From a virus: DNA of 56,773 nucleotides. The translations under genes were made by a program, and so were the position numbers. Location: the IMG/VR virus record IMGVR_UViG_3300025128_000043, positions 1-56,773 of that record; one strand, given 5' to 3'. This document shows, in pieces, positions 1,891 to 56,773 of the stretch. The notes under the pieces are model-generated. The model saw only the letters and a program-made list of their open reading frames with translations. It did no database searches and was not told where the DNA came from. Position 1 is the stretch's first letter. Each line of letters opens with the position of its first letter.

Positions 1891-3675
1891 CTAAGAAGAA
1901 AGCGTGTAAACGCTTAGTTTCTCGCTCTTGCCTTTGACTTCGATGGAATCTAGGTACTCCACCATATCAGGAACCTCTTGAGCAGTAGCCTCTCCGATCA
2001 ATACATCCTGCTCGTATTTTCTAGTGCTGGACTCTAACCTGGCAGCAACATTCACCGAATCACCGATAGCGGAATAGTCAAATCGCTTGTCTCCCCCGAC
2101 ATTGCCAATAACGCAAGGGCCAGTGTTGACTCCGATGCCAATGCCTAGCCTGGGCAATCCTTCTGCTTCTATTTCTTTGTTCAGTTCTTCCAATGCCACC
2201 AACATCATTGCGGCACAAGTCACTGCCCGTTCTTGATGGTCTTCACAGTCAACTGGTGCGCCCCAGAACGCCATCACGCAATCGCCCATGTACTTGTCTA
2301 TCGTTCCATCCAGTGATAGCACTACATCTGTCAATGCTGAAAGCAGTCTGTTGATAAGAGTCACTAACCCTTGGGGATCGTTGTTATTCTTGAAATGCTC
2401 TGAGATGGGGGTGAAGCCAACGATGTCGCAAAAGAGGAAACTTAATGTCTTGGTATCACCACCTAATCTCATCAGGGAAGGGTCATCGACCAACTGCTGA
2501 ACTAATTTTGGGGAAACATATGTCCCAAACATCCCCTTGATCTGGAGCTTTTGCCGATACTCGCTAATCATTCTCTGCCCAACACCCACTGAACCGATGG
2601 TCAGGCTACACAGAATAGGCCATGCCGCATCGACCAATATACCAGCCCTTAAATAGCCTAAGACCGATCCTGTTGCCGTCAGAGCGCCGACAACGACAAT
2701 GCCTAGTGGAACACTCATCACAGGCAAACGGCTTGCAGAGAAGGCTGTGAGCAGTCCTATGGCTAATATCAGCAAGACTTCTCCACCCAAGGCCCAATTT
2801 GGGCGAACAGGCGAGGTTCCTGCCAACAAAGTCTCGAACAGTGTCGCTTGAATCTCATGTGGAAACATAAGACCCCTCGGAGTAGGTACGAGCGGAGTAA
2901 TACCAGCCGCAGTCACACCCACAAAGATGATAGTACCTTCTGTCGGTTGCTGGGCAAACGTGGTTCCCCAATCAATCCATACCCTTCCTGCTGAATCAGT
3001 ATTGATGGTATCGAAGTTAGGCACTCTAACCGCCTCTATGCCTGTCTCAGAGCCTCTGACTTGGTAGGAAGGATCACCAGCCAGTCCACGCAAAACATCA
3101 AGCCCAAGGGCCGGATACAGGCTCTCACCAACCCTGACCACCATCGGCACTCGTCTAACTAGACCATCGACCTCTGGGGCCGTGTTAACTATGCCCGTAC
3201 CGATAGCTGAGTCCTGCAATACCTGCACATTCGGCAGGATGCCAGGGTAGTTAATGGCGTTTTCATTGACCTGACCCAGTGTGGCTACGCCGATATGCCA
3301 GCCTTCCTGTCGATCTGTGCTGGTTGTAGCTACGGCTGAGAGAAATGTTGGTAGTTGCCCCATGCTCTCGGCAAATTCAGCATCACCCCCAAATCGGTCT
3401 GTTTCGGGGAATAAAACCGAATACACAACTGCCGCTGCCCCTGAATCGAGAAGATAACGGTTAAGCTCTGCAAGTTGCTGACGAGGCCAGGGCCATTGAC
3501 CCCCCTCGGCTAATGCGGCTTCGTCTATGTTGTAAAGAGAAATGTTCTGACTTTGAACTGGCTCGGTAATCGTAAGCAGAGCATCAAAATACTTGAGTCT
3601 CAGAGTTTCTACAGGCCAGGGATCGACAACACGAAGAAGTAATAATCCAGCCAGCAAAGCAAGTAAAACCTTCAA
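1891..3675 (-). CDS. CHASE2-domain class III adenylate/guanylate cyclase
   Basis: A membrane cyclase of 594 residues. An N-terminal membrane helix (about 1-20) precedes an extracytoplasmic CHASE2-type sensor (about 25-285), three membrane helices (about 298-365) and a catalytic domain (about 405-590). Key residues are all present: metal-binding Asp417 in FCDIVGFT and Asp465 in KYMGD, substrate-selecting Lys461 and Asp533 (RFDYSAIGD), and transition-state Asn542 and Arg546 in VNVAARLE. The Lys/Asp pair favours ATP, so the product is probably cAMP. It is the last gene of the late operon. In bacteria CHASE2 cyclases often neighbour FecR-domain genes, as here. Confidence 0.9.
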   Translation of the reverse strand: MKVLLALLAGLLLLRVVDPWPVETLRLKYFDALLTITEPVQSQNISLYNIDEAALAEGGQWPWPRQQLAELNRYLLDSGAAAVVYSVLFPETDRFGGDAEFAESMGQLPTFLSAVATTSTDRQEGWHIGVATLGQVNENAINYPGILPNVQVLQDSAIGTGIVNTAPEVDGLVRRVPMVVRVGESLYPALGLDVLRGLAGDPSYQVRGSETGIEAVRVPNFDTINTDSAGRVWIDWGTTFAQQPTEGTIIFVGVTAAGITPLVPTPRGLMFPHEIQATLFETLLAGTSPVRPNWALGGEVLLILAIGLLTAFSASRLPVMSVPLGIVVVGALTATGSVLGYLRAGILVDAAWPILCSLTIGSVGVGQRMISEYRQKLQIKGMFGTYVSPKLVQQLVDDPSLMRLGGDTKTLSFLFCDIVGFTPISEHFKNNNDPQGLVTLINRLLSALTDVVLSLDGTIDKYMGDCVMAFWGAPVDCEDHQERAVTCAAMMLVALEELNKEIEAEGLPRLGIGIGVNTGPCVIGNVGGDKRFDYSAIGDSVNVAARLESSTRKYEQDVLIGEATAQEVPDMVEYLDSIEVKGKSEKLSVYTLSS

Positions 3676-3938
3676 TGTACGTCATACTCCCACCATTGAA
3701 TGATCGCAGACCACGGAATAACCATTGGTGTGTTAATAATATCAGGGTGTTTCTCGTAAATATCAGTGGATAAAATCAGACACTCTTCATTGTCTTTAGA
3801 AATAACATATCCTACGGTTGATCGCAGGACAGGAAGAAGCTCCATTGCGTCTTTCATCGTTACATCTTTTGGGTCGATCCAAGCATCCTCCCATATGACC
3901 TGAGCAATTTTATGTCGAGTGCTAAAACTGTCTACCAT
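3672..3938 (-). CDS. Unknown 88-aa protein
   Basis: Starts MVDSFSTRHK and ends QWWEYDVH. Overlaps the genes on both sides (stop over the cyclase start, start inside the basic-protein gene), consistent with one transcript. It reads as a small soluble alpha/beta protein: IAQVIWEDAW, then a strand VGYVISKD, then CLILSTDIY. No named family is assigned. Small phage proteins that combine a W-x-D-A-W start with a GYVI strand are familiar, but their role is unknown. Confidence 0.65.
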   Translation of the reverse strand: MVDSFSTRHKIAQVIWEDAWIDPKDVTMKDAMELLPVLRSTVGYVISKDNEECLILSTDIYEKHPDIINTPMVIPWSAIIQWWEYDVH

Positions 3939-4222
3939 TTAACTTTATTTGCCCAATAAGCCGCACTCATTTTGCCTTTCTTAATGTTTTTTCCATGTCT
4001 TGCTTTGAAAGATTTTCGTCTGGCTTTCTGCTTGGCAGACTCTCCAGCTTTAGGCTTACCCGCCGTCTTGACCCCCTGCTGGCCGAAACGAATGGTCTTA
4101 ATTTTGTCACCTTCTTTGGCAACAACAATGTGAGACTTCTTTGGATGATTCGGGGTGCGCTTTGGCTTATTAAAACCAGCAACACCCGCCCTCGCTAATC
4201 TTGGATCTTTTTTCTTTGGCAT
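3932..4222 (-). CDS. Very basic small protein, 96 aa
   Basis: Start set at ATG 4222 (MPKKKDPRLARAG), overlapping the stop of the upstream gene by one base; a GTG three bases earlier is less likely. Lys and Arg dominate. The middle holds a short beta-like segment (SHIVVAKEGDKIKTIRFGQQG), followed by a basic helix rich in KAGESAKQKARRKSFKARHG and a C-terminal AAYWANKVKW. It belongs to a run of four basic proteins. I know similar proteins from large marine phages without a proven function; DNA binding is inference. Confidence 0.7.
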   Translation of the reverse strand: MPKKKDPRLARAGVAGFNKPKRTPNHPKKSHIVVAKEGDKIKTIRFGQQGVKTAGKPKAGESAKQKARRKSFKARHGKNIKKGKMSAAYWANKVKW

Positions 4223-4473
4223 CACTTCCCAGCCTTTCTGTATTTACGGGTTTTTTTGGCTATCTTCTTAGGTTGTTTACTGACCTTCTTGCCTTTTTTG
4301 GTATCTTCTCGCTTTTTTCGAGTAGTTGCAGCGTATTCTTTAGAAGATAGCGCCTTAATTGCAGCACTCGGTAAGTACCTTTCACCTGTCTTTGCTGAAG
4401 GCTTACCACTTTTAGTACGCCATTTCTGCTTTGTCCAGGCTTTGAGGGACTTTTGAGATTTTTTCAAAGCCAT
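4222..4473 (-). CDS. Very basic small protein, 83 aa
   Basis: Starts MALKKSQKSLKAWTKQKW. The segment RTKSGKPSAKTGERYLPSAA followed by IKALSSKEYAATT resembles small proteins seen in marine phages, then a long Lys-rich tail to the stop. No catalytic motif is seen. Its stop overlaps the start of the next gene. Charge and size suggest nucleic-acid compaction or a virion-packaged protein; this is inference. Confidence 0.7.
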   Translation of the reverse strand: MALKKSQKSLKAWTKQKWRTKSGKPSAKTGERYLPSAAIKALSSKEYAATTRKKREDTKKGKKVSKQPKKIAKKTRKYRKAGK

Positions 4474-4655
4474 TACTTACCCCACTGACTCTTGGCTTTT
4501 TTCTTGGCAGTCTTGCCCAAATCGCCGTAATGAAAAATAGGCTTGCTCGTTTTAGTGTGTGTTTTGTTGGTGTGCAATGCACCATCAGGCATCTTGTGAT
4601 ATGAACCCTTCCATTCCTTACCGTCTTTCAGGTAATGCTTAACATTCATTCCCAT
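4473..4655 (-). CDS. Very basic small protein, 60 aa
   Basis: Starts MGMNVKHYLKDGKEWKG. A core of GSYHKMPDGALHTNKTHTK looks like a short beta-hairpin module that recurs in small phage proteins. Ends KKKAKSQWGK. Adjacent to basic proteins on both sides, with start and stop touching. Function unknown. Confidence 0.7.
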   Translation of the reverse strand: MGMNVKHYLKDGKEWKGSYHKMPDGALHTNKTHTKTSKPIFHYGDLGKTAKKKAKSQWGK

Positions 4656-4846
4656 TACTTATAACCTCCGCCTTTTGCTTTATATTCTTTAGCAAGCATT
4701 TGAGCTTTTCTAGCCGACCATTGACCTGCCTTACCGCCCTTAGTTCCTGCTTTAATCTTGTTAAACAGGTTTTTTCTCATGGTAGGCTTTGTATAATTGC
4801 CAGCCTCATTAACTTTTGACTTAGTTTTAGTTTTTTTCTTTGGCAT
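4655..4846 (-). CDS. DUF5872-like very basic protein, 63 aa
   Basis: The C-terminal half (GGKAGQWSARKAQMLAKEY followed by KAKGGGYK) matches, from memory, the DUF5872 core found in cyanophages and other large aquatic viruses (pattern GQWSARKAQ...YK..GGGYK). The N-terminal half is a Lys-rich lead. It is the first of the four basic genes and lies eight bases after the upstream curlin gene. Function unknown. Confidence 0.65.
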   Translation of the reverse strand: MPKKKTKTKSKVNEAGNYTKPTMRKNLFNKIKAGTKGGKAGQWSARKAQMLAKEYKAKGGGYK

Positions 4847-4854
4847 CTTGACCC

Positions 4855-5640
4855 CTAATCAAACTGATTAATTGTGACAGTTTTATTGCAATTAGATGTG
4901 CAATCAAGGGTTACTGTGTAACCTTTTGCACTTACCCCTGTTTGCGTAGCATTAACCGTATAGTTTCCTTGGGCTACAGTAATATTAGAAACATGAGCGC
5001 CATCCCCGCTCTGAGTTAAATTCACAGTGGAATTGTCGCTTGGGTTATTCTTAAACTCGATATCCCCATCTTTATTGCCTGAACCGCTCTGAGTAATCGT
5101 GGCATCGTTATTGTTACAATTATTACAAGACTTGATATAGGCATTGTGATCGCCTGATCCTGATTGAGTTACAGTCCATGCGCTGTCATCACCAAACGCA
5201 TAAAACTTGGCGTAATGCTCACCTGATCCTGATTGAGAAATGGTGTAAACATTATCATCGCCTGACATATAAACTTCAGCTTCCAAGTCATCGCCCGTTT
5301 GGGTGATTGTCATTTCGTTATTGTCTTCATCGGCATCTATGTAACCAATATTATCATTGCCATCCTGATTAATAGTGTACTCATTCCCCGTGTGATTGGT
5401 GTATTGACTATACGCTTTGGCAAGATTGCCTGTTCCATCCTGATCTATGTCAATAGTGGCGCTGGAGCAGGTATGGGTAGTATAGGTTCCGTTACTCAGA
5501 CCACACCAAACTCTCGCTGTGTTACCCGACCCGATCTGGTCTATATAAATACTGGTATTGGAACCTTTAGTGTCAATCTCTACAGAGTTATCTGATGCCC
5601 ACAGAGGAAAACTAAGGAGACTGATTAATATAAATCGCAT
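4855..5640 (-). CDS. Curlin-repeat protein (CsgA/CsgB-like), 10 repeats
   Basis: A secreted protein of 261 residues. The signal peptide is MRFILISLLSFPLWA, cut before SDN. The rest is built of curlin-type strands of form x-I/V-x-Q-x-G-x-x-N, about 20-25 residues apart: IYIDQIGSGN, IDIDQDGTGN, YTINQDGNDN, YTISQSGSGE, WTVTQSGSGD, ATITQSGSGN, VNLTQSGDGA and others, ending VTINQFD. In curli these strands stack into an amyloid fibre. Three Cys pairs are present, unlike E. coli CsgA, which has none. It is exported presumably by the CsgG-like pore encoded upstream in the same operon. Confidence 0.85.
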   Translation of the reverse strand: MRFILISLLSFPLWASDNSVEIDTKGSNTSIYIDQIGSGNTARVWCGLSNGTYTTHTCSSATIDIDQDGTGNLAKAYSQYTNHTGNEYTINQDGNDNIGYIDADEDNNEMTITQTGDDLEAEVYMSGDDNVYTISQSGSGEHYAKFYAFGDDSAWTVTQSGSGDHNAYIKSCNNCNNNDATITQSGSGNKDGDIEFKNNPSDNSTVNLTQSGDGAHVSNITVAQGNYTVNATQTGVSAKGYTVTLDCTSNCNKTVTINQFD

Positions 5641-6694
5641 TTTCTCCTCCCCCGTTAATAATAATGTCCAGTTTTTTCCCTGCCGTCATTACAGAAATAT
5701 TGTACGCATTGCCCTTGTCAAGCTCTAAATCAAAGGTATTTTCCACGCTACGATAAACCGTCAGCACTTCCCCTTCAACAAACGTATAGGTCTGATTCTG
5801 TTGATCGAAACCAGGCAGAATACCCTCTATTTGCACTCCGCTTATTTCTGCTACTTCTTTTTTCTCGGTTGCCGATACCTCAATAATGTCCAGTAAGTCA
5901 GTCAGGAAATCGACATTCAACAGGTCAATGTCCAACCTGCCAATCTCGTCCTGTAATTCATCCTCGTCCAGTTCATTCTCATCAAGCTCTGTTTCTTCAA
6001 GCAAATCCACATCTAGGATGTTAGAAGCCGTGCCTGATTGTTCTTCCACCACCTCGGTAATCTCGTCAGGGGGGCTGACAATAAGCAGGTTGTCGATGAA
6101 TCCCAGTGTCATATTCGATAACACAACGGGCCGTGTCGGAGCCGCCTCTGAAACAGTGGTCATGGTTGCCTGAAACGGCTGGTTTAATACCACCACACTG
6201 GTAGCTGTTTCTACAGTAATCTCACCACTGGAACTCCCGTCTTCATTGGGCAGCAGGATAACCAGGCTACGGCCTATCTCGTCCACAGTAGTAGTAAAAT
6301 CCGTGCCTCGTATCGCAATAGTCGCGGTGGGTGTGCGGATTGCAATATTTTCTTTATTAATCCTGCCTAATGCACCTGTAAGGAACCTTGCTGTACCACT
6401 TGCCATGTTCAATGCTAAACGGCTACGAGCAGGATCAGGATCAAACACAAAGTCATCTATAACAATCTTGCTGTGTTCCGTGAGCCTTAAAACGGAGTCA
6501 TCCAGAAAAGATATTGCGAGCCTGCCGTTGCCAGTACGCACATCATCGTAACTGGCAATGTCTAAGTCCAGTTCTGCTGTAAGAGAATCTGTGGTGTCTT
6601 GTCGAACAACCTCACCGATACCGCGAAGCTCGGTTATCTCACCAACCTGAGCATTAACTGCCAGTGGAAAAAGAACTAACAGCCACTTGTGCAT
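5612..6694 (-). CDS. Secreted FecR-domain protein with a curlin-like C-terminal strand
   Basis: A protein of 360 residues with a signal peptide (MHKWLLVLFPLAVNA, cut before Q). Residues about 16-160 form a FecR-type domain: a region of G-E-V-V-R-Q, a DVRTGNGRLAISFLDDS core and the conserved IAIRGTDFTT. An acidic linker (ETELDENELDEDELQ) follows, then a C-terminal beta domain. The last residues (GENAIYINQSP) match the first strand of both curlin proteins (NSIYITQSG and TSIYIDQIG). FecR proteins normally sense signals in the periplasm; here the domain could anchor or nucleate the fibre. It overlaps the genes on both sides. Confidence 0.8.
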   Translation of the reverse strand: MHKWLLVLFPLAVNAQVGEITELRGIGEVVRQDTTDSLTAELDLDIASYDDVRTGNGRLAISFLDDSVLRLTEHSKIVIDDFVFDPDPARSRLALNMASGTARFLTGALGRINKENIAIRTPTATIAIRGTDFTTTVDEIGRSLVILLPNEDGSSSGEITVETATSVVVLNQPFQATMTTVSEAAPTRPVVLSNMTLGFIDNLLIVSPPDEITEVVEEQSGTASNILDVDLLEETELDENELDEDELQDEIGRLDIDLLNVDFLTDLLDIIEVSATEKKEVAEISGVQIEGILPGFDQQNQTYTFVEGEVLTVYRSVENTFDLELDKGNAYNISVMTAGKKLDIIINGGGENAIYINQSP

Positions 6695-7389
6695 TGGTCA
6701 ACATCAATCACGCCACTGGTTGTAGTCGCAACGATATCAAGCACGTTGCTCACGCTACCGCCGTTACTGGTCTGGTCTACGTCAATATTGTTACTGTTTC
6801 CTGTGATATTTGCCGTAATAGAATGATCTGAGTTGTTGGCTTGGGTCGTGTCTATATCGTTAGAATCACCGTCAACCGTCCAGTTATTCACACATCCGAC
6901 CACGTTGCATGTCACAGCCAGGTTATTTGACGTTCCGCTAACATCGAAGTCGGCGTTCGCGGCTGTTGCTGTTGCTGCATCACCCTGAGTGTATACCAGC
7001 ACATTGGAGTCTCCAGTAGCAGCAAAATCGAAGTCGGTATTCTGGACATCACCTGTTGCGCCAAGCGCCAGCGTCTGCGTATTAGAATCACCAGTAGAAG
7101 ACAACGTGAAGCTAGTTGAGTTACCCTGTGCCACTGTCGCTGCAATCACATTTGAATCACCAATCTGGTCAATATCAACAGTCATACCTGTTCCTGTAAG
7201 GGAAACTCTTGCATTGCTAGTGCCTATTACGTTTGAGCCACCAATCTGGTCGATATTCATCGTCAATGCTGACGACCCACCGCTTTGAGTAATATAAATA
7301 GAATTGTTTGCCGCTAATGCAGAAACAGCAAACGCTAAGAACAACAAATAAAAGGCCCAGACTACACAAAAGTTAATTAAGATTTTCAT
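6676..7389 (-). CDS. Second curlin-like repeat protein
   Basis: A protein of 237 residues. A long signal peptide (hydrophobic up to about residue 26, ending SALA) precedes ANNSIYITQSG. Degenerate curlin strands follow: MNIDQIGGSNV, VDIDQIGDSNV, then copies in which Q is lost but G-x-S-N is kept (STGDSN, ATGDSN, SGTSNN, DGDSND, TGNSNN). It ends IDVDQCTSGC. The pattern is less regular than in the 4855 protein, so one may be the main subunit and this one a nucleator or minor subunit, as CsgA and CsgB are; that is inference. It overlaps csgG by 17 bases. Confidence 0.8.
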   Translation of the reverse strand: MKILINFCVVWAFYLLFLAFAVSALAANNSIYITQSGGSSALTMNIDQIGGSNVIGTSNARVSLTGTGMTVDIDQIGDSNVIAATVAQGNSTSFTLSSTGDSNTQTLALGATGDVQNTDFDFAATGDSNVLVYTQGDAATATAANADFDVSGTSNNLAVTCNVVGCVNNWTVDGDSNDIDTTQANNSDHSITANITGNSNNIDVDQTSNGGSVSNVLDIVATTTSGVIDVDQCTSGC

Positions 7390-8203
7390 TTTCGGTCTCC
7401 TCTGTTTGTGGCTGATAATCCCACAAGTCCTGTGCTATGCCCTGATGCACTATTTCAAGCACTGCTTGCTCAATGGCACTCCTGACGGCATAGGTTGCTG
7501 TTTCATTTCTAGCAACGCCAGCTTCAACCTCAACTAATTCAGTACCGTTTTCCGTAAATCTAAACGTATCAAATCCCGTTGATGTTGAATATACCTGTTT
7601 ACTGGTGATTACATTTAATAAAATTTGTCCGGTTTGCACCAAAACAACTCTGAGAGCCACTGTAACCTCGTCTACGCGATGTTGTGCGTTAAGCCCTATG
7701 CCCAGATACCTAGCGCCTATACCGCCGCTTCTGAGGTTTGTGTCGTAACCAATGATACCACCTGACATTATCAATCCGCTGAACAACAATGGCTGTAGCT
7801 GGTTTGCACCCTCACCGTCATAAGTGCTTCTGGTGGATATAATCAGTTGTCTTTCCCGCGTGAGGGAGTCTAATTCACCCCGTTCCGCGATTAAAAACCA
7901 TTTTCCATCTCCCGCAGCCATGAGTGCGTCAATCAGGAAAGAATCAGCCCCCTGCGTTACAGCAGTAGAAAATAACGCCATGTTATCCGCCGTGGCCCTT
8001 TGTCCGGTCATATCCAAAAAAGAATAAACGCTAACTACAGCCTTCTGGCGTGGCATGGGTAAATTAACCAGTTCTGTCAGCGTAGGGCGCTTTACCTCTG
8101 GTGGTGGCGAGCAGTAATTACTTAGCGTCCCGCATCGGTACGGATCAACACTAACACAACCAGAAAGTGCTAATACTGCTAAACATAAAGTTAGATACCG
8201 CAC
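7373..8203 (-). CDS. csgG: CsgG: curli secretion channel lipoprotein
   Basis: A protein of 276 residues aligning along its length with E. coli CsgG from memory. A lipoprotein signal ends LSGC, so Cys16 would be lipidated. Conserved blocks: VVSVYSFLDMTGQ (56-68), FSTAVTQGA (78-86), WFLIAERGELDSLTRERQL (102-120), GGIIGYDTN (148-156), SGGIGARYLGIG (159-170) and LWDYQ near the end. CsgG forms a nonameric outer-membrane pore. At the channel constriction F56 is kept (Phe78), but E. coli N55 is Leu77 and the Y51 position has no Tyr. It overlaps csgF by 13 bases, the same order as in curli operons. Confidence 0.95.
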   Translation of the reverse strand: MRYLTLCLAVLALSGCVSVDPYRCGTLSNYCSPPPEVKRPTLTELVNLPMPRQKAVVSVYSFLDMTGQRATADNMALFSTAVTQGADSFLIDALMAAGDGKWFLIAERGELDSLTRERQLIISTRSTYDGEGANQLQPLLFSGLIMSGGIIGYDTNLRSGGIGARYLGIGLNAQHRVDEVTVALRVVLVQTGQILLNVITSKQVYSTSTGFDTFRFTENGTELVEVEAGVARNETATYAVRSAIEQAVLEIVHQGIAQDLWDYQPQTEETENENLN

Positions 8204-8655
8204 TCGTCCGTACTACAAATACCGAAAGTTCCCACAGGGATTCTTATTTCGGTAATTGCTCCGTCTGTATCAGTAACTGTCAAAACGATTTCAGTACCTG
8301 TATTAACAAAGGCAATGCTGTTGCCTTCCAGATCAATAACGCCGCCTGAACCACCTGTCTCAGAGTTAAACAAAGATTCTGCTAAATCTCTGGAAAGCTG
8401 GGAAAAAATTCTTGATTCAAGATTTCTTATAAATTTTGCAAGCGTAGTGTTTTCCTCAGCCCTTAGTGCTTCTTCTGCCTTGGCCTCAGCTTCCTCCCGA
8501 AGAGACTGTTTGCGGCTACGCTCCTGCTCGTCAATGGTCAGATAATGGGCTGACTGTCCTATGCCATTAAAAGAAGGGTTTTTGAATTGAAATACAAGAT
8601 CGCTGGCTACTACAGGAGTCGCAAATAAACTAATCGTTATCAACCACTTGTTCAT
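8191..8655 (-). CDS. csgF: CsgF: curli assembly factor
   Basis: A protein of 154 residues with a signal peptide (MNKWLITISLFATPVVAS). The mature N-terminus contains FQFKNPSFNG (22-31), matching the E. coli CsgF segment FQFRNPNFGG that inserts into the CsgG pore. A charged helical insert (EEAEAKAEEALRAEEN) follows, then IRNLESRIFSQLSRDL and a C-terminal beta region (EIVLTVTDTDG), also as in CsgF. CsgF caps the CsgG channel outside the cell and helps nucleate curlin. It overlaps csgG downstream and the small membrane protein upstream. Confidence 0.93.
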   Translation of the reverse strand: MNKWLITISLFATPVVASDLVFQFKNPSFNGIGQSAHYLTIDEQERSRKQSLREEAEAKAEEALRAEENTTLAKFIRNLESRIFSQLSRDLAESLFNSETGGSGGVIDLEGNSIAFVNTGTEIVLTVTDTDGAITEIRIPVGTFGICSTDECGI

Positions 8656-8893
8656 CTTTTTGCTCCCTCAACTCAATGACTGTATCCAGTTTCTGTTGTA
8701 GTCTAATGATGTCATTATCGAGCATCCTTATTCTGTCAATCAAAGCGATCAAGGTAACATTAGCATCTGCCAGTTTTGCCTTGATATTGTTGGTGATGAA
8801 GTTCCAGATGAAATGAATCATATAGAGCAAGCCCACCGTAGCGACTATCGGAAAGCCGTATTCGCTGACCGCTGCCGCTATACCTTCCATCAA
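8630..8893 (-). CDS. Small membrane protein with coiled coil (paralogue of 8890)
   Basis: A protein of 87 residues: a short N-terminus, one membrane helix (about 14-36, starting FPIVATVGLLYM), then a helical tail rich in Asp, Arg and Leu (LDNDIIRLQQKLDTV). Its neighbour at 8890 has the same plan and shared words (GFPI at the membrane start, DI-I/V-RL in the tail), so the two look like a tandem duplication. The layout resembles BhlA/UviB-type holin-like proteins, but no family is certain. Confidence 0.65.
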   Translation of the reverse strand: MMEGIAAAVSEYGFPIVATVGLLYMIHFIWNFITNNIKAKLADANVTLIALIDRIRMLDNDIIRLQQKLDTVIELREQKDEQVVDND

Positions 8894-9171
8894 TCTCGCC
8901 TGGCATCTTCTTTCCCATCGGCTCTGGCAATTCTATTCAAATCGGGCCTGATACCAAGAACACTACACATCGTTGCGTCAAGTCTGACAATATCATGGTT
9001 CATCGTTTTTACGCGATTATCAAGGGATTGCACAATGCCGTGTATGCCATTCACCTGCCCGATAACGCTCTCAAGAATATATTTGATGGTCAGAAATATG
9101 AAGAACCCTGCAATCAAAGCAATAGCAATGGGAAACCCTACGTCACCGATCAGGGCAAAAGCCTCGTTCAT
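8890..9171 (-). CDS. Small membrane protein with coiled coil (paralogue of 8630)
   Basis: A protein of 93 residues: a membrane helix (about 12-34, GFPIAIALIAGFFIF), then a coiled-coil-like segment (VQSLDNRVKTMNHDIVRLD) and a charged end. The start and stop overlap the flanking genes by four bases. Related in layout to its neighbour. A holin-associated or membrane-anchoring role in lysis fits the place and topology but is not shown. Confidence 0.65.
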   Translation of the reverse strand: MNEAFALIGDVGFPIAIALIAGFFIFLTIKYILESVIGQVNGIHGIVQSLDNRVKTMNHDIVRLDATMCSVLGIRPDLNRIARADGKEDARRD

Positions 9172-9512
9172 TCTTCCTCACCCTTAAACTTCTTAGACTG
9201 ACCAGAGGTTCCAGCATAAATGCCAAAGACTGCTGCCATAGCACCGACAACAACCGACACCAATCCTGCCTGCTCTAAATTAGGCTCATCAATAGTCATA
9301 AACCACATGACAACTGCGTACAGCAAATAAATGTAAACACCCACAAAGACCCTTGGAAAGATACGCCACGCATCAACAGTTCTAGCCAGATGTATCCATT
9401 TCTGATACGGGTTTATACCAATATTGTTAGGTGTTACTTCAAGCTCAAGATTAACTTTCTTTTTGATTACGTCATTTTCAAGAATGACCGTTGGCCCATC
9501 TTTTTCAATCAT
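9168..9512 (-). CDS. Holin-like membrane protein
   Basis: A protein of 114 residues with two predicted membrane helices, about 57-74 (VFVGVYIYLLYAVVMWF) and about 84-104 (LVSVVVGAMAAVFGIYAG), and a charged C-terminus. The N-terminal 50 residues are polar. Two helices with a short loop and proximity to spanin-like genes suggest a holin or related membrane protein of the lysis cassette. No named family assigned. Confidence 0.55.
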   Translation of the reverse strand: MIEKDGPTVILENDVIKKKVNLELEVTPNNIGINPYQKWIHLARTVDAWRIFPRVFVGVYIYLLYAVVMWFMTIDEPNLEQAGLVSVVVGAMAAVFGIYAGTSGQSKKFKGEEE

Positions 9513-9514
9513 AA

Positions 9515-9922
9515 TTATTCTTCCGTTGTTTCAGCCTCATCTTTTCGAGTCGGGTCATTATCCCTATAATATTTAATAATATTAAGGACTTGGCGTATAT
9601 ACCTTCTCACATCTGCAAAATTATTGGAAAGGTTTTCATAGCCCTGAGAACTCAATCCGTAGTAGGCCATAGCTGGCGCATCCCCTTCATCATAGTTTTC
9701 TATGTACTCGCGCATCACAGAAGGATTCAGGACTGTCCATTCCACCTCAGAGGGAACCACAGACTCTGGTAGGGGGGGATGATACATAGGTGCAGGCTCG
9801 GTAATTGTAACCACCTCAACGGGCCTGACTTCAGGAACAGCAGTGCTTCCCCCGAACAGACCGCCCATTGTCGAACATCCTTGCAGCCATAACAGGCTAA
9901 TCAGCAGAAACCACTTCATCAA
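9515..9922 (-). CDS. Lipoprotein, candidate outer-membrane spanin (Rz1-like)
   Basis: A protein of 135 residues whose signal ends LLWLQGC, a lipobox placing the lipidated Cys at residue 16. A proline-rich stretch (PAPMYHPPLPESVVP) follows, typical of outer-membrane spanins. It overlaps the 3' end of the coiled-coil inner-membrane gene by 26 bases, the classic overlapping spanin arrangement. It is longer than usual for Rz1, so a specialised lipoprotein is possible. Confidence 0.6.
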   Translation of the reverse strand: MMKWFLLISLLWLQGCSTMGGLFGGSTAVPEVRPVEVVTITEPAPMYHPPLPESVVPSEVEWTVLNPSVMREYIENYDEGDAPAMAYYGLSSQGYENLSNNFADVRRYIRQVLNIIKYYRDNDPTRKDEAETTEE

Positions 9923-10316
9923 ATTGTCTCGGATTTGTTAACGCAGCTAGGGCTTCACCCACCTGCCTTGTGCCTCGGTTAACGGCATTTTCAATTAACC
10001 CAGGTCGTGCAATCGCCAGAGAGTTTAAGTCATGCCTGGCAAATGTATTGCGTAATTGCGTCACTTCCTGACGGGCTTCATCATTAGCCTCAGAAAGCTC
10101 TGCGATACGCGCTTGATTAACTCTTTGATTTTCCAGTTGTTCTTGCAACTGCGTATTCTGATTAGCAATCGTGCTTTCCAGAACCGCCTGATTGTTAACC
10201 GCAGTCTGTAACTCTACCTGTAACCGCTCTATCTGAGCCTTCTGCATATTGATATAGAAGTAAGAGCCTGCGGCAGTGGTTATCAAGGCAAACCCAAGAA
10301 GCAGGCTGAGTTTCAT
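9897..10316 (-). CDS. Inner-membrane spanin candidate (Rz-like)
   Basis: A protein of 139 residues: an N-terminal membrane anchor (about 3-23, LSLLLGFALITTAAGSYFY), then a long coiled coil (about 25-95; IERLQVELQTAVNNQ and QARIAELSEANDEAR) and a C-terminal tail. This is the expected form of an inner-membrane spanin that spans the periplasm to pair with a lipoprotein partner and fuse inner and outer membranes at lysis. The start overlaps the stop of the upstream 1056-residue gene. Confidence 0.7.
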   Translation of the reverse strand: MKLSLLLGFALITTAAGSYFYINMQKAQIERLQVELQTAVNNQAVLESTIANQNTQLQEQLENQRVNQARIAELSEANDEARQEVTQLRNTFARHDLNSLAIARPGLIENAVNRGTRQVGEALAALTNPRQFDEVVSAD

Positions 10317-56185: not shown

Positions 56186-56384
56186 TCCACTAGATGAACA
56201 AGTGGGTGGAGACCACTACAAAGACCTAGCCATTCAGCCTTTTGAGTTCATAGAACTCAATAATCTCGGCTACGGCGCAGGTAATGTCGTGAAGTATATT
56301 TGCCGATACAAAAGCAAGGGTGGTGTTGATGATCTTAAAAAAGCTCGCCATTACATAGATTTACTTATTGAGGTGGAACAATGA
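56178..56384 (+). CDS. DUF3310-family protein, complete copy
   Basis: A 68-residue protein: MSDPLDEQVGGDHYKDLAIQ, then PFEFIELNNLGYGAGNVVKY and a helical YKSKGGVDDLKKARHYIDLL end. The QVGGDHYK, GNVVKYI and DLKKARHYID words are the DUF3310 signature. Its last 29 codons are repeated at 2-91. Its stop overlaps the next ATG. Confidence 0.85.
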   Translation: MSDPLDEQVGGDHYKDLAIQPFEFIELNNLGYGAGNVVKYICRYKSKGGVDDLKKARHYIDLLIEVEQ

Positions 56385-56392
56385 ATAAAAAC
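56294..56392. repeat. 99-bp direct repeat, right copy (with 1-99)
   Basis: Identical to bases 1-99. After 56392 an extra small gene (56381-56476) is present, absent from the left copy. Confidence 0.9.
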
Positions 56393-56476
56393 CAAGCATT
56401 TGACAATCCGTTAGGTCTGTCGGAAAAAATAATAAAGACCATTTTAGATCATCAATTAGCAGAAGCAGAAGGATGA
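56381..56476 (+). CDS. Small protein, 31 aa, only in the right copy
   Basis: MNKNQAFDNPLGLSEKIIKT and ILDHQLAEAEG. Starts in ATGA overlap with DUF3310 and ends overlapping the next ATG (ATGA). The left copy has no equivalent: there the MNKN start continues directly into the 51-residue protein. It is therefore an insertion/deletion difference between copies. Confidence 0.5.
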   Translation: MNKNQAFDNPLGLSEKIIKTILDHQLAEAEG

Positions 56477-56652
56477 ACAAAAACGCCATTAAAAAACGCC
56501 GCATTAAGGCGGTGAAGGCGGTTTTACAGAAACCTCTGAGTCAAGACATGAAAGCCTATTGGACTGGCGTTCTGAAACACCTCAGTTCTTGGTCGGTGGA
56601 AAAACGCAACATGGGGTTGAATGAAATGAAGAAGGCGGTATCAGATGAGTAA
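56473..56652 (+). CDS. Small basic protein, 59 aa (paralogue of 88-243)
   Basis: Starts MNKNAIKKRRIKAVKAVLQK, ends MKKAVSDE. Shares the N-terminus and DMK-YWTGVL core with the left copy and a W-x-VEKRN segment. Stop overlaps the next gene. Function unknown. Confidence 0.65.
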   Translation: MNKNAIKKRRIKAVKAVLQKPLSQDMKAYWTGVLKHLSSWSVEKRNMGLNEMKKAVSDE

Positions 56653-56773
56653 GGGAAGCAAACAAAGACCAGTCGATAAAAAGCGTTTTGATGAAGGGTT
56701 TGACCGAATATTCGGCAAGAAGCCAACAAGCCACAAAAAATTAAAGAAAAAAGATACAAAAGCTCCAATATGA
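56645..56773 (+). CDS. Small basic protein, 42 aa (paralogue of 252-380)
   Basis: Starts MSKGSKQRPVDKKRFDEGFD and ends KKKDTKAPI, the stop codon being the last three bases of the window. Same length as the left copy. If the genome is circular, this end joins the GNAT-like gene at 377, as in the left copy. Confidence 0.65.
   Translation: MSKGSKQRPVDKKRFDEGFDRIFGKKPTSHKKLKKKDTKAPI

Follow-up and report, generated by a model that had tools for sequence, protein, structure and literature searches.

The stretch of DNA analyzed here, called the window below, is the whole IMG/VR virus record IMGVR_UViG_3300025128_000043 (56,773 nt). On its minus strand, 16 genes run from position 10316 to position 1891, with gaps of at most 8 nt and mostly overlapping. 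The series begins with an inner spanin-like protein (9897..10316; phrog_739 Rz-like spanin, 2.6e-11), an outer spanin-like lipoprotein (9515..9922; phrog_812 Rz-like spanin, 2.9e-13) and a 114-aa membrane protein of unassigned function (9168..9512; phrog_10198, 2.2e-20). Two membrane and coiled-coil proteins follow, tm93 (93 aa; 8890..9171; phrog_18771) and tm87 (87 aa; 8630..8893; phrog_18771 at 1.3e-26, and weakly the holin family phrog_4898). The curli genes come next, encoding the chaperone CsgF (8191..8655; Pfam, 3.3e-14), the outer-membrane pore CsgG (7373..8203; Pfam, 3.8e-48) and the curlin-like protein curA (237 aa; 6676..7389), which matches the Curlin_rpt model at just E=0.018 and is assigned by a phage curlin HMM and its position between csgG and fecR. 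A FecR-domain periplasmic protein of 360 aa ending in NAIYINQSP (5612..6694; Pfam FecR, 1.8e-11) precedes the curlin-repeat protein curB (261 aa, ending in VTINQFD; 4855..5640; Pfam Curlin_rpt, 1.7e-16, with NCBIfam CsgA/CsgB matches under cut-off). Four small basic ORFs (97, 83, 60 and 63 aa; 3932..4846) separate curB from sORF88, an 88-aa ORF (3672..3938) that lies directly upstream of the cyclase gene. All four basic ORFs are present in the close relatives L002, L003, L004 and L006 (L numbers denote loci) and missing in most relatives. Two of them belong to phrog_7595 and phrog_14910, both of unassigned function. Family searches gave no family for sORF88, which tblastn and HMM searches found conserved beside the cyclase in many relatives. 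This layout fits the claim of the initial annotation that the cyclase is co-transcribed with the curli genes and FecR; a promoter scan of the window gave fewer matches than shuffled sequences did.

Comparison of the contig ends (1-380 against 56294-56773) showed that positions 1-99 are identical to 56294-56392 and that the remainder of the contig end repeats the contig start, diverged but in unchanged order. Closure on a strain variant is probable, which would make the record a near-complete genome of about 56.3 kb, though IMG/VR calls it linear. GC content along the window ranges from 41 to 52%. The terminase is 53-58% and the capsid protein about 60% identical to those of the HTVC023P lineage, and judged by these two proteins the window phage, which is marine, is a relative of HTVC023P. 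Phage 023Pt_psg01 (MW574966) has no close relative of the window cyclase, and no curli gene was found in the parts of it examined.

The last gene of the series (1891..3675, minus strand) encodes a predicted CHASE2-class III adenylate cyclase of the IIIb type. Its reading frame is uninterrupted through 594 aa and shares 4 nt with the preceding gene; the TTG start codon is forced, because an in-frame TGA stop three codons upstream rules out an earlier start. Pfam models matched above cut-off for CHASE2 (residues 9-310, E=1.4e-35) and Guanylate_cyc (residues 409-592, E=5.8e-21). The AlphaFold2 model (mean pLDDT 88.7) comprises an N-terminal helix, a CHASE2 ectodomain, three transmembrane helices, a connecting helix and the cyclase. 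Its helices at 2-34, 295-316, 321-344 and 351-383 follow the plan of CHASE2 receptors, in which an N-terminal transmembrane segment, CHASE2 and three transmembrane segments lead to a cytosolic output. The cyclase part has the class III catalytic fold, matching CyaC (1wc1) and CyaB (3r5g) in Foldseek with TM scores of 0.89-0.90 at 1.5-1.6 Å. These two enzymes also share the Lys and Ser/Thr substrate pair of the window cyclase, but carry other N-terminal regulatory parts, whereas the window protein sits in the membrane and has a CHASE2 ectodomain. The reading frame, the two domains and the model bear out the earlier description of an intact CHASE2 sensor cyclase rather than a fragment; sequence and model together make it very likely that the protein is an active adenylate cyclase receptor.

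In the alignment, the metal-binding Asp417 and Asp465, Lys461, Asn542 and Arg546 were all present, which confirms both metal Asp and the Asn/Arg pair noted initially. The Lys/Asp pair that had been taken to favour ATP was a misreading: the real pair is Lys461/Ser535, Ser535 lying seven positions ahead of Asn542. In alignments with P. aeruginosa CyaB, Lys461 stands opposite Lys and Ser535 opposite Thr; the guanylyl cyclase Cya2 has Glu and Gly at these two positions. Class IIIb adenylate cyclases are said by Linder and Schultz to combine the substrate Lys with Thr or Ser replacing Asp. Enzymes of this class work as homodimers that convert ATP to cAMP, and some of them respond to bicarbonate. 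Given the pair K461 and S535, the window cyclase is class IIIb-like, as are CyaC and CyaB, and not of the Lys/Asp type; by the established rules it would prefer ATP.

The motif D/K/D/(S or T)/N/R was kept in full in 70 of 76 complete viral cyclase domains, the window included. Four Melnitz-like copies carry S535D and N542S, and the close relatives L006 and L016 carry K461T. A catalytic residue is thus lost in six of the 76 copies, so activity is not essential everywhere. These substitutions could indicate that the protein acts mainly as a sensor or scaffold, with catalysis dispensable or drifting, as could the L017 group, in which the sensor half is conserved far better than the output half. 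We consider such a role quite improbable, given a dN/dS of about 0.05 and the fact that the 70 full active sites extend to phages whose cyclase domain was exchanged. Where synonymous sites were unsaturated, pairwise dN/dS against close relatives was mostly about 0.03-0.07 for the whole gene and the sensor, and 0.02-0.13 for the cyclase domain; by these estimates, the cyclase is under strong purifying selection. Besides K461T, L006 (L006:10001-11782) and L016 have Asp460 replaced by Ile, and the CHASE2 domain of L006 is 99% identical to that of the window.

The core order csgF-csgG-curlin-FecR-curlin-cyclase was also found in the cultured Pelagibacter phage HTVC008M and the Methylophilales phage Melnitz, and the window follows the published order of the type VIII secretion (T8SS)/curli cassette (csgF, csgG, curlin, FecR, second curlin, cyclase). 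PMC9599517 (2022) describes this cassette, FecR and cyclase included, in HTVC023P-type podophages and pelagimyophages, and PMC7029224 and PMC9004378 describe it in part. The operon is therefore already known, and the window adds a member to it. Compared with the HTVC023P-type pelagiphage and pelagimyophage cassette of PMC9599517, the window has the same genes in the same order in a related phage lineage, but its cyclase belongs to a separate podophage subclade, and it has the four extra basic ORFs and spanin genes directly upstream. The cyclases of HTVC008M (AGE60353) and Melnitz (QZI95054) have the same domain architecture and cassette position as that of the window, but are only 38% and 36% identical to it, the latter also differing by N542S and S535D. 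Four features appear undescribed in the portions of the literature covered: the exchange of domains, the pairing of FecR with a cyclase in bacteria, the lack of a known receiver and the common tail motif.

The frequency of the cyclase was assessed in 35 viral loci picked by csgG with at least 6.5 kb downstream, a set unbiased for cyclase presence. The cyclase was found in 33 of them, and FecR with two curlins in all 35. This is the survey for the same gene beside csgG in other phages which the initial annotation had proposed. The idea that a phage-encoded cyclase is rare does not hold: the gene is present in this large majority of csgG loci, is carried by cultured HTVC008M and Melnitz, and is published (PMC9599517). 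In L142 and L144, spanin and lysozyme genes directly follow the second curlin gene, and the stretch examined contains no cyclase. The Acinetobacter 'phage' matches H7 and H8 were rejected as phage cyclases, the neighbourhood of H7 being bacterial (mfd, isc genes) and thus mislabelled host DNA. In L036 (CAKLQH020000011.1, 'Acinetobacter phage MD-2021a'), the part labelled as phage is bacterial chromosome with mfd, isc genes and cyaA, apparently mislabelled.

A tree of 81 proteins (41 from phages and 40 from a pattern-selected bacterial sample) separated all 41 phage proteins from the others by a branch with SH-aLRT 100. The same split was recovered at 100 with CHASE2 alone and at 59 with the cyclase domain alone. 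The suggested phylogeny against bacterial CHASE2 cyclases thus sets the phage copies apart. Host origin through chimeric assembly, in which a host gene would have been joined to a phage contig, had also been raised; its probability is negligible, as many independent viral contigs and the genomes of two cultured phages carry this gene within an unchanged gene order, and in the tree a branch with full support sets the phage copies off. The many viral loci, the 70 of 76 intact active sites and the low dN/dS point to a real, old phage gene.

The two halves of this gene have partly separate histories. In L017-L023, a window-type CHASE2 (80% identical) is joined to a pelagiphage-type cyclase, which is 43% identical to that of the window and 73% to that of L163; the active site is intact despite the exchange. 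L002 and L006 have a breakpoint of the same kind on a smaller scale: for L002, synonymous differences from the window amount to 0.33 (sensor) and 0.08 (cyclase), for L006 to 0.20 and 0.73. From these mosaics, it follows that phages swap the output domain while the sensor stays.

Both small genes before csgF are always part of the cassette, that of myophages included. Each encodes a protein of 87-93 aa, or 115 aa for one of the Melnitz copies, that combines a single hydrophobic segment with a coiled coil, falls in phrog_18771 and matches holins weakly (E 0.002-0.008). tm93 is the best conserved gene of the cassette, with 88-98% identity among podophages and about 50% in HTVC008M and Melnitz, and tm87 stays beside csgF in the latter two phages. 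According to PMC9599517, one or two histidine kinases always precede the csg genes. Neither Pfam nor NCBIfam recognized a kinase domain in tm87 or tm93, and the window thus lacks the published histidine kinase upstream of csgF. Judging from their position, the published 'HK' genes are probably these membrane coiled-coil proteins of about 90 residues.

The proximity of lysis genes raises the question of whether the cassette is part of the lysis program, with the small membrane proteins, the CsgG pores and the cyclase timing or triggering lysis. In the window, the spanin genes lead without gaps through the pair of holin-like small genes into csgF. Among 31 viral loci for which both flanks are present, 14 have a spanin or lysozyme gene within 3 kb, and the authors on Melnitz (PMC9004378) proposed that CsgGF has a pinholin-like role. 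However, myophage cassettes lie among other genes, late genes often cluster even when their functions are unrelated, the match to holins is weak, and a pore needs no curlins, FecR or cyclase. We therefore regard a lysis function as unlikely.

In our preferred reading, the FecR protein would link the curli genes to the cyclase. It has a signal peptide followed directly by the FecR domain and a predicted C-terminal beta domain; the N-terminal cytosolic anti-sigma domain and transmembrane segment of FecR anti-sigma regulators were not found. The model matches the C-terminal signalling domain of PupR (6ovk, Z 16.7), as expected for a periplasmic FecR signalling domain. All 36 distinct phage FecR tails carry the motif h.h.Q within their last 10 residues (2.4% in shuffles), a count that overstates independence because the tails are related by descent. 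Curlin tails from these cassettes carry the motif as well, in 28 of 34 and in 36 of 40 distinct sequences, and a slightly stricter form was present in none of 18 bacterial FecRs beside cyclases. The Pfam curlin model did not match phage FecR even at E=10, so the likeness between FecR and curlin tails consists in the strand motif. The simplest alternative is that the FecR tail may be just the last strand of the modelled C-terminal beta domain.

Bacterial genomes gave further clues to the pairing of FecR and cyclase. A FecR-like ORF was located within 2.5 kb of 16 of the 77 bacterial CHASE2-cyclases with flanks, compared with five such ORFs in 774 kb elsewhere; the pairing is limited to about a fifth of these loci. 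The bacterial CHASE2-class III cyclases with FecR share the CHASE2-3TM-cyclase layout of the window protein and are at best 37-38% identical to it, but they have no curli genes nearby (csgG at 0 of 80 bacterial CHASE2-cyclase loci) and their FecR has no curlin-type tail. Conversely, neither FecR nor cyclase was seen in ten bacterial csgF/csgG regions of 10-20 kb each, a small sample drawn from 659 alpha- and gammaproteobacterial genomes and one Pseudoalteromonas genome; this agrees with PMC9599517. The two distributions suggest that a curli unit and a FecR-cyclase signalling pair, both bacterial and both older, came together in the phage cassette. A comparable arrangement is the Burkholderia BiofilmReg operon (PMC5192318), which pairs a FecR/LysM protein with a CHASE2 histidine kinase. 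There too, a FecR gene adjoins a CHASE2 receptor gene in a biofilm-linked setting, but the output is a histidine kinase and no curli genes are reported.

Taken together, the last gene of this phage-borne curli (type VIII secretion) cassette encodes a membrane receptor that very probably makes cAMP, and FecR and the cyclase would report the state of the envelope or of curli secretion; we put this forward tentatively. FecR would sit in the periplasm, read curlin secretion or the state of the outer-membrane pore, and pass it to the CHASE2 ectodomain, which would switch the cyclase. During infection, cAMP would then mark the point at which fibre or pore is in position. We slightly favour a sensing partnership between FecR and CHASE2; that curlin secretion or the pore state is the actual signal has some support but is rather doubtful. 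A further step, in which a curlin-tailed FecR reads assembly of the phage's own fibre or pore and a CHASE2 cyclase with exchangeable output signals in streamlined hosts lacking CRP, would make the cassette a self-contained envelope-sensing circuit; it requires an unrecognized receiver of cAMP and is improbable.

The receiver was sought in phages and hosts. No match to the cNMP-binding domain PF00027 was found in the window or in eight other phage records, including HTVC008M and Melnitz. We also searched 60 genomes of a family that we take to be SAR11 from two 16S probe sites found in L220; they are kin of the known HTVC008M host, and what they show concerns this family of phages rather more than the window phage itself. 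Only two of the 60 genomes carry a cNMP-binding domain; although many of the assemblies may have gaps, this would hardly account for the 58 negatives. A class I cyclase was detected in none of the 60 and a class III cyclase in two, both phage-like. One of these (L224, genome G681) lies with a FecR tail, spanins and lysozyme and is clearly this phage cassette, the contig being either a prophage or a phage sequence that contaminates the bin. The other, L225, is a full-length phage-type CHASE2-cyclase whose phage origin is less certain.

These results bear on a reading that is partly the published one, namely that the phage cyclase raises host cAMP and reprograms a CRP-type regulon. Several points favour it: all ten bacterial genomes with related CHASE2-cyclases, in contrast to the SAR11 family, have cNMP-binding domains; cAMP supports curli expression in enterobacteria (cited in PMC9599517); the CHASE2-type cyclase CyaD1 of S. 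meliloti signals via the CRP-type regulator Clr, with an adjoining FecR-domain gene as a Clr target (PMC5498481); and the host of the window phage may not be SAR11. In the SAR11 family, however, cAMP receptors and own cyclases are almost entirely missing, both class III cyclases apparently being a phage cassette or phage-like copy, and the cassette has no CsgD. Rewiring of a host CRP regulon is thus unlikely there from the genomes surveyed, less likely for SAR11 phages than the published text suggests, and as a general explanation we rate it as fairly unlikely. The initial proposal that the cyclase alters host cAMP signalling is doubtful on the same counts (2 of 60 genomes, 0 of 9 phage records). 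That leaves a non-canonical receiver, or else a host of the window phage outside SAR11; a literature search for a cAMP receptor in SAR11 gave nothing useful. If the cyclase is active in SAR11, a second messenger enters cells without a known receiver, which would imply a new cAMP target or a wrong idea of host range.

The nucleotide product might instead feed, saturate or mislead cyclic-nucleotide defence, as initially suggested, and CBASS and Pycsar defences do use cyclic nucleotides. A decoy enzyme, however, needs neither a constant linkage to FecR and curli nor a receptor-type sensor, and no defence gene was noticed at the loci in an unsystematic look. The analysis gave no specific sign for or against such a role; this is a very remote prospect.

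The curli cassette is common in ocean phages, and its function has so far been guessed, with sibling capture, an uptake pore, a superinfection block or lysis timing as suggestions. Three findings offer testable handles on it: FecR is paired with the cyclase, FecR and the curlins end in a common motif, and output domains are exchanged. As a separate lead only, residues 1-110 of FecR resemble the surface-anchoring domain of an RTX adhesin, the ice-binding adhesin (5ix9; sequence E 0.04, Z 7.0), and a retention or plug function of this N-terminal part is possible.
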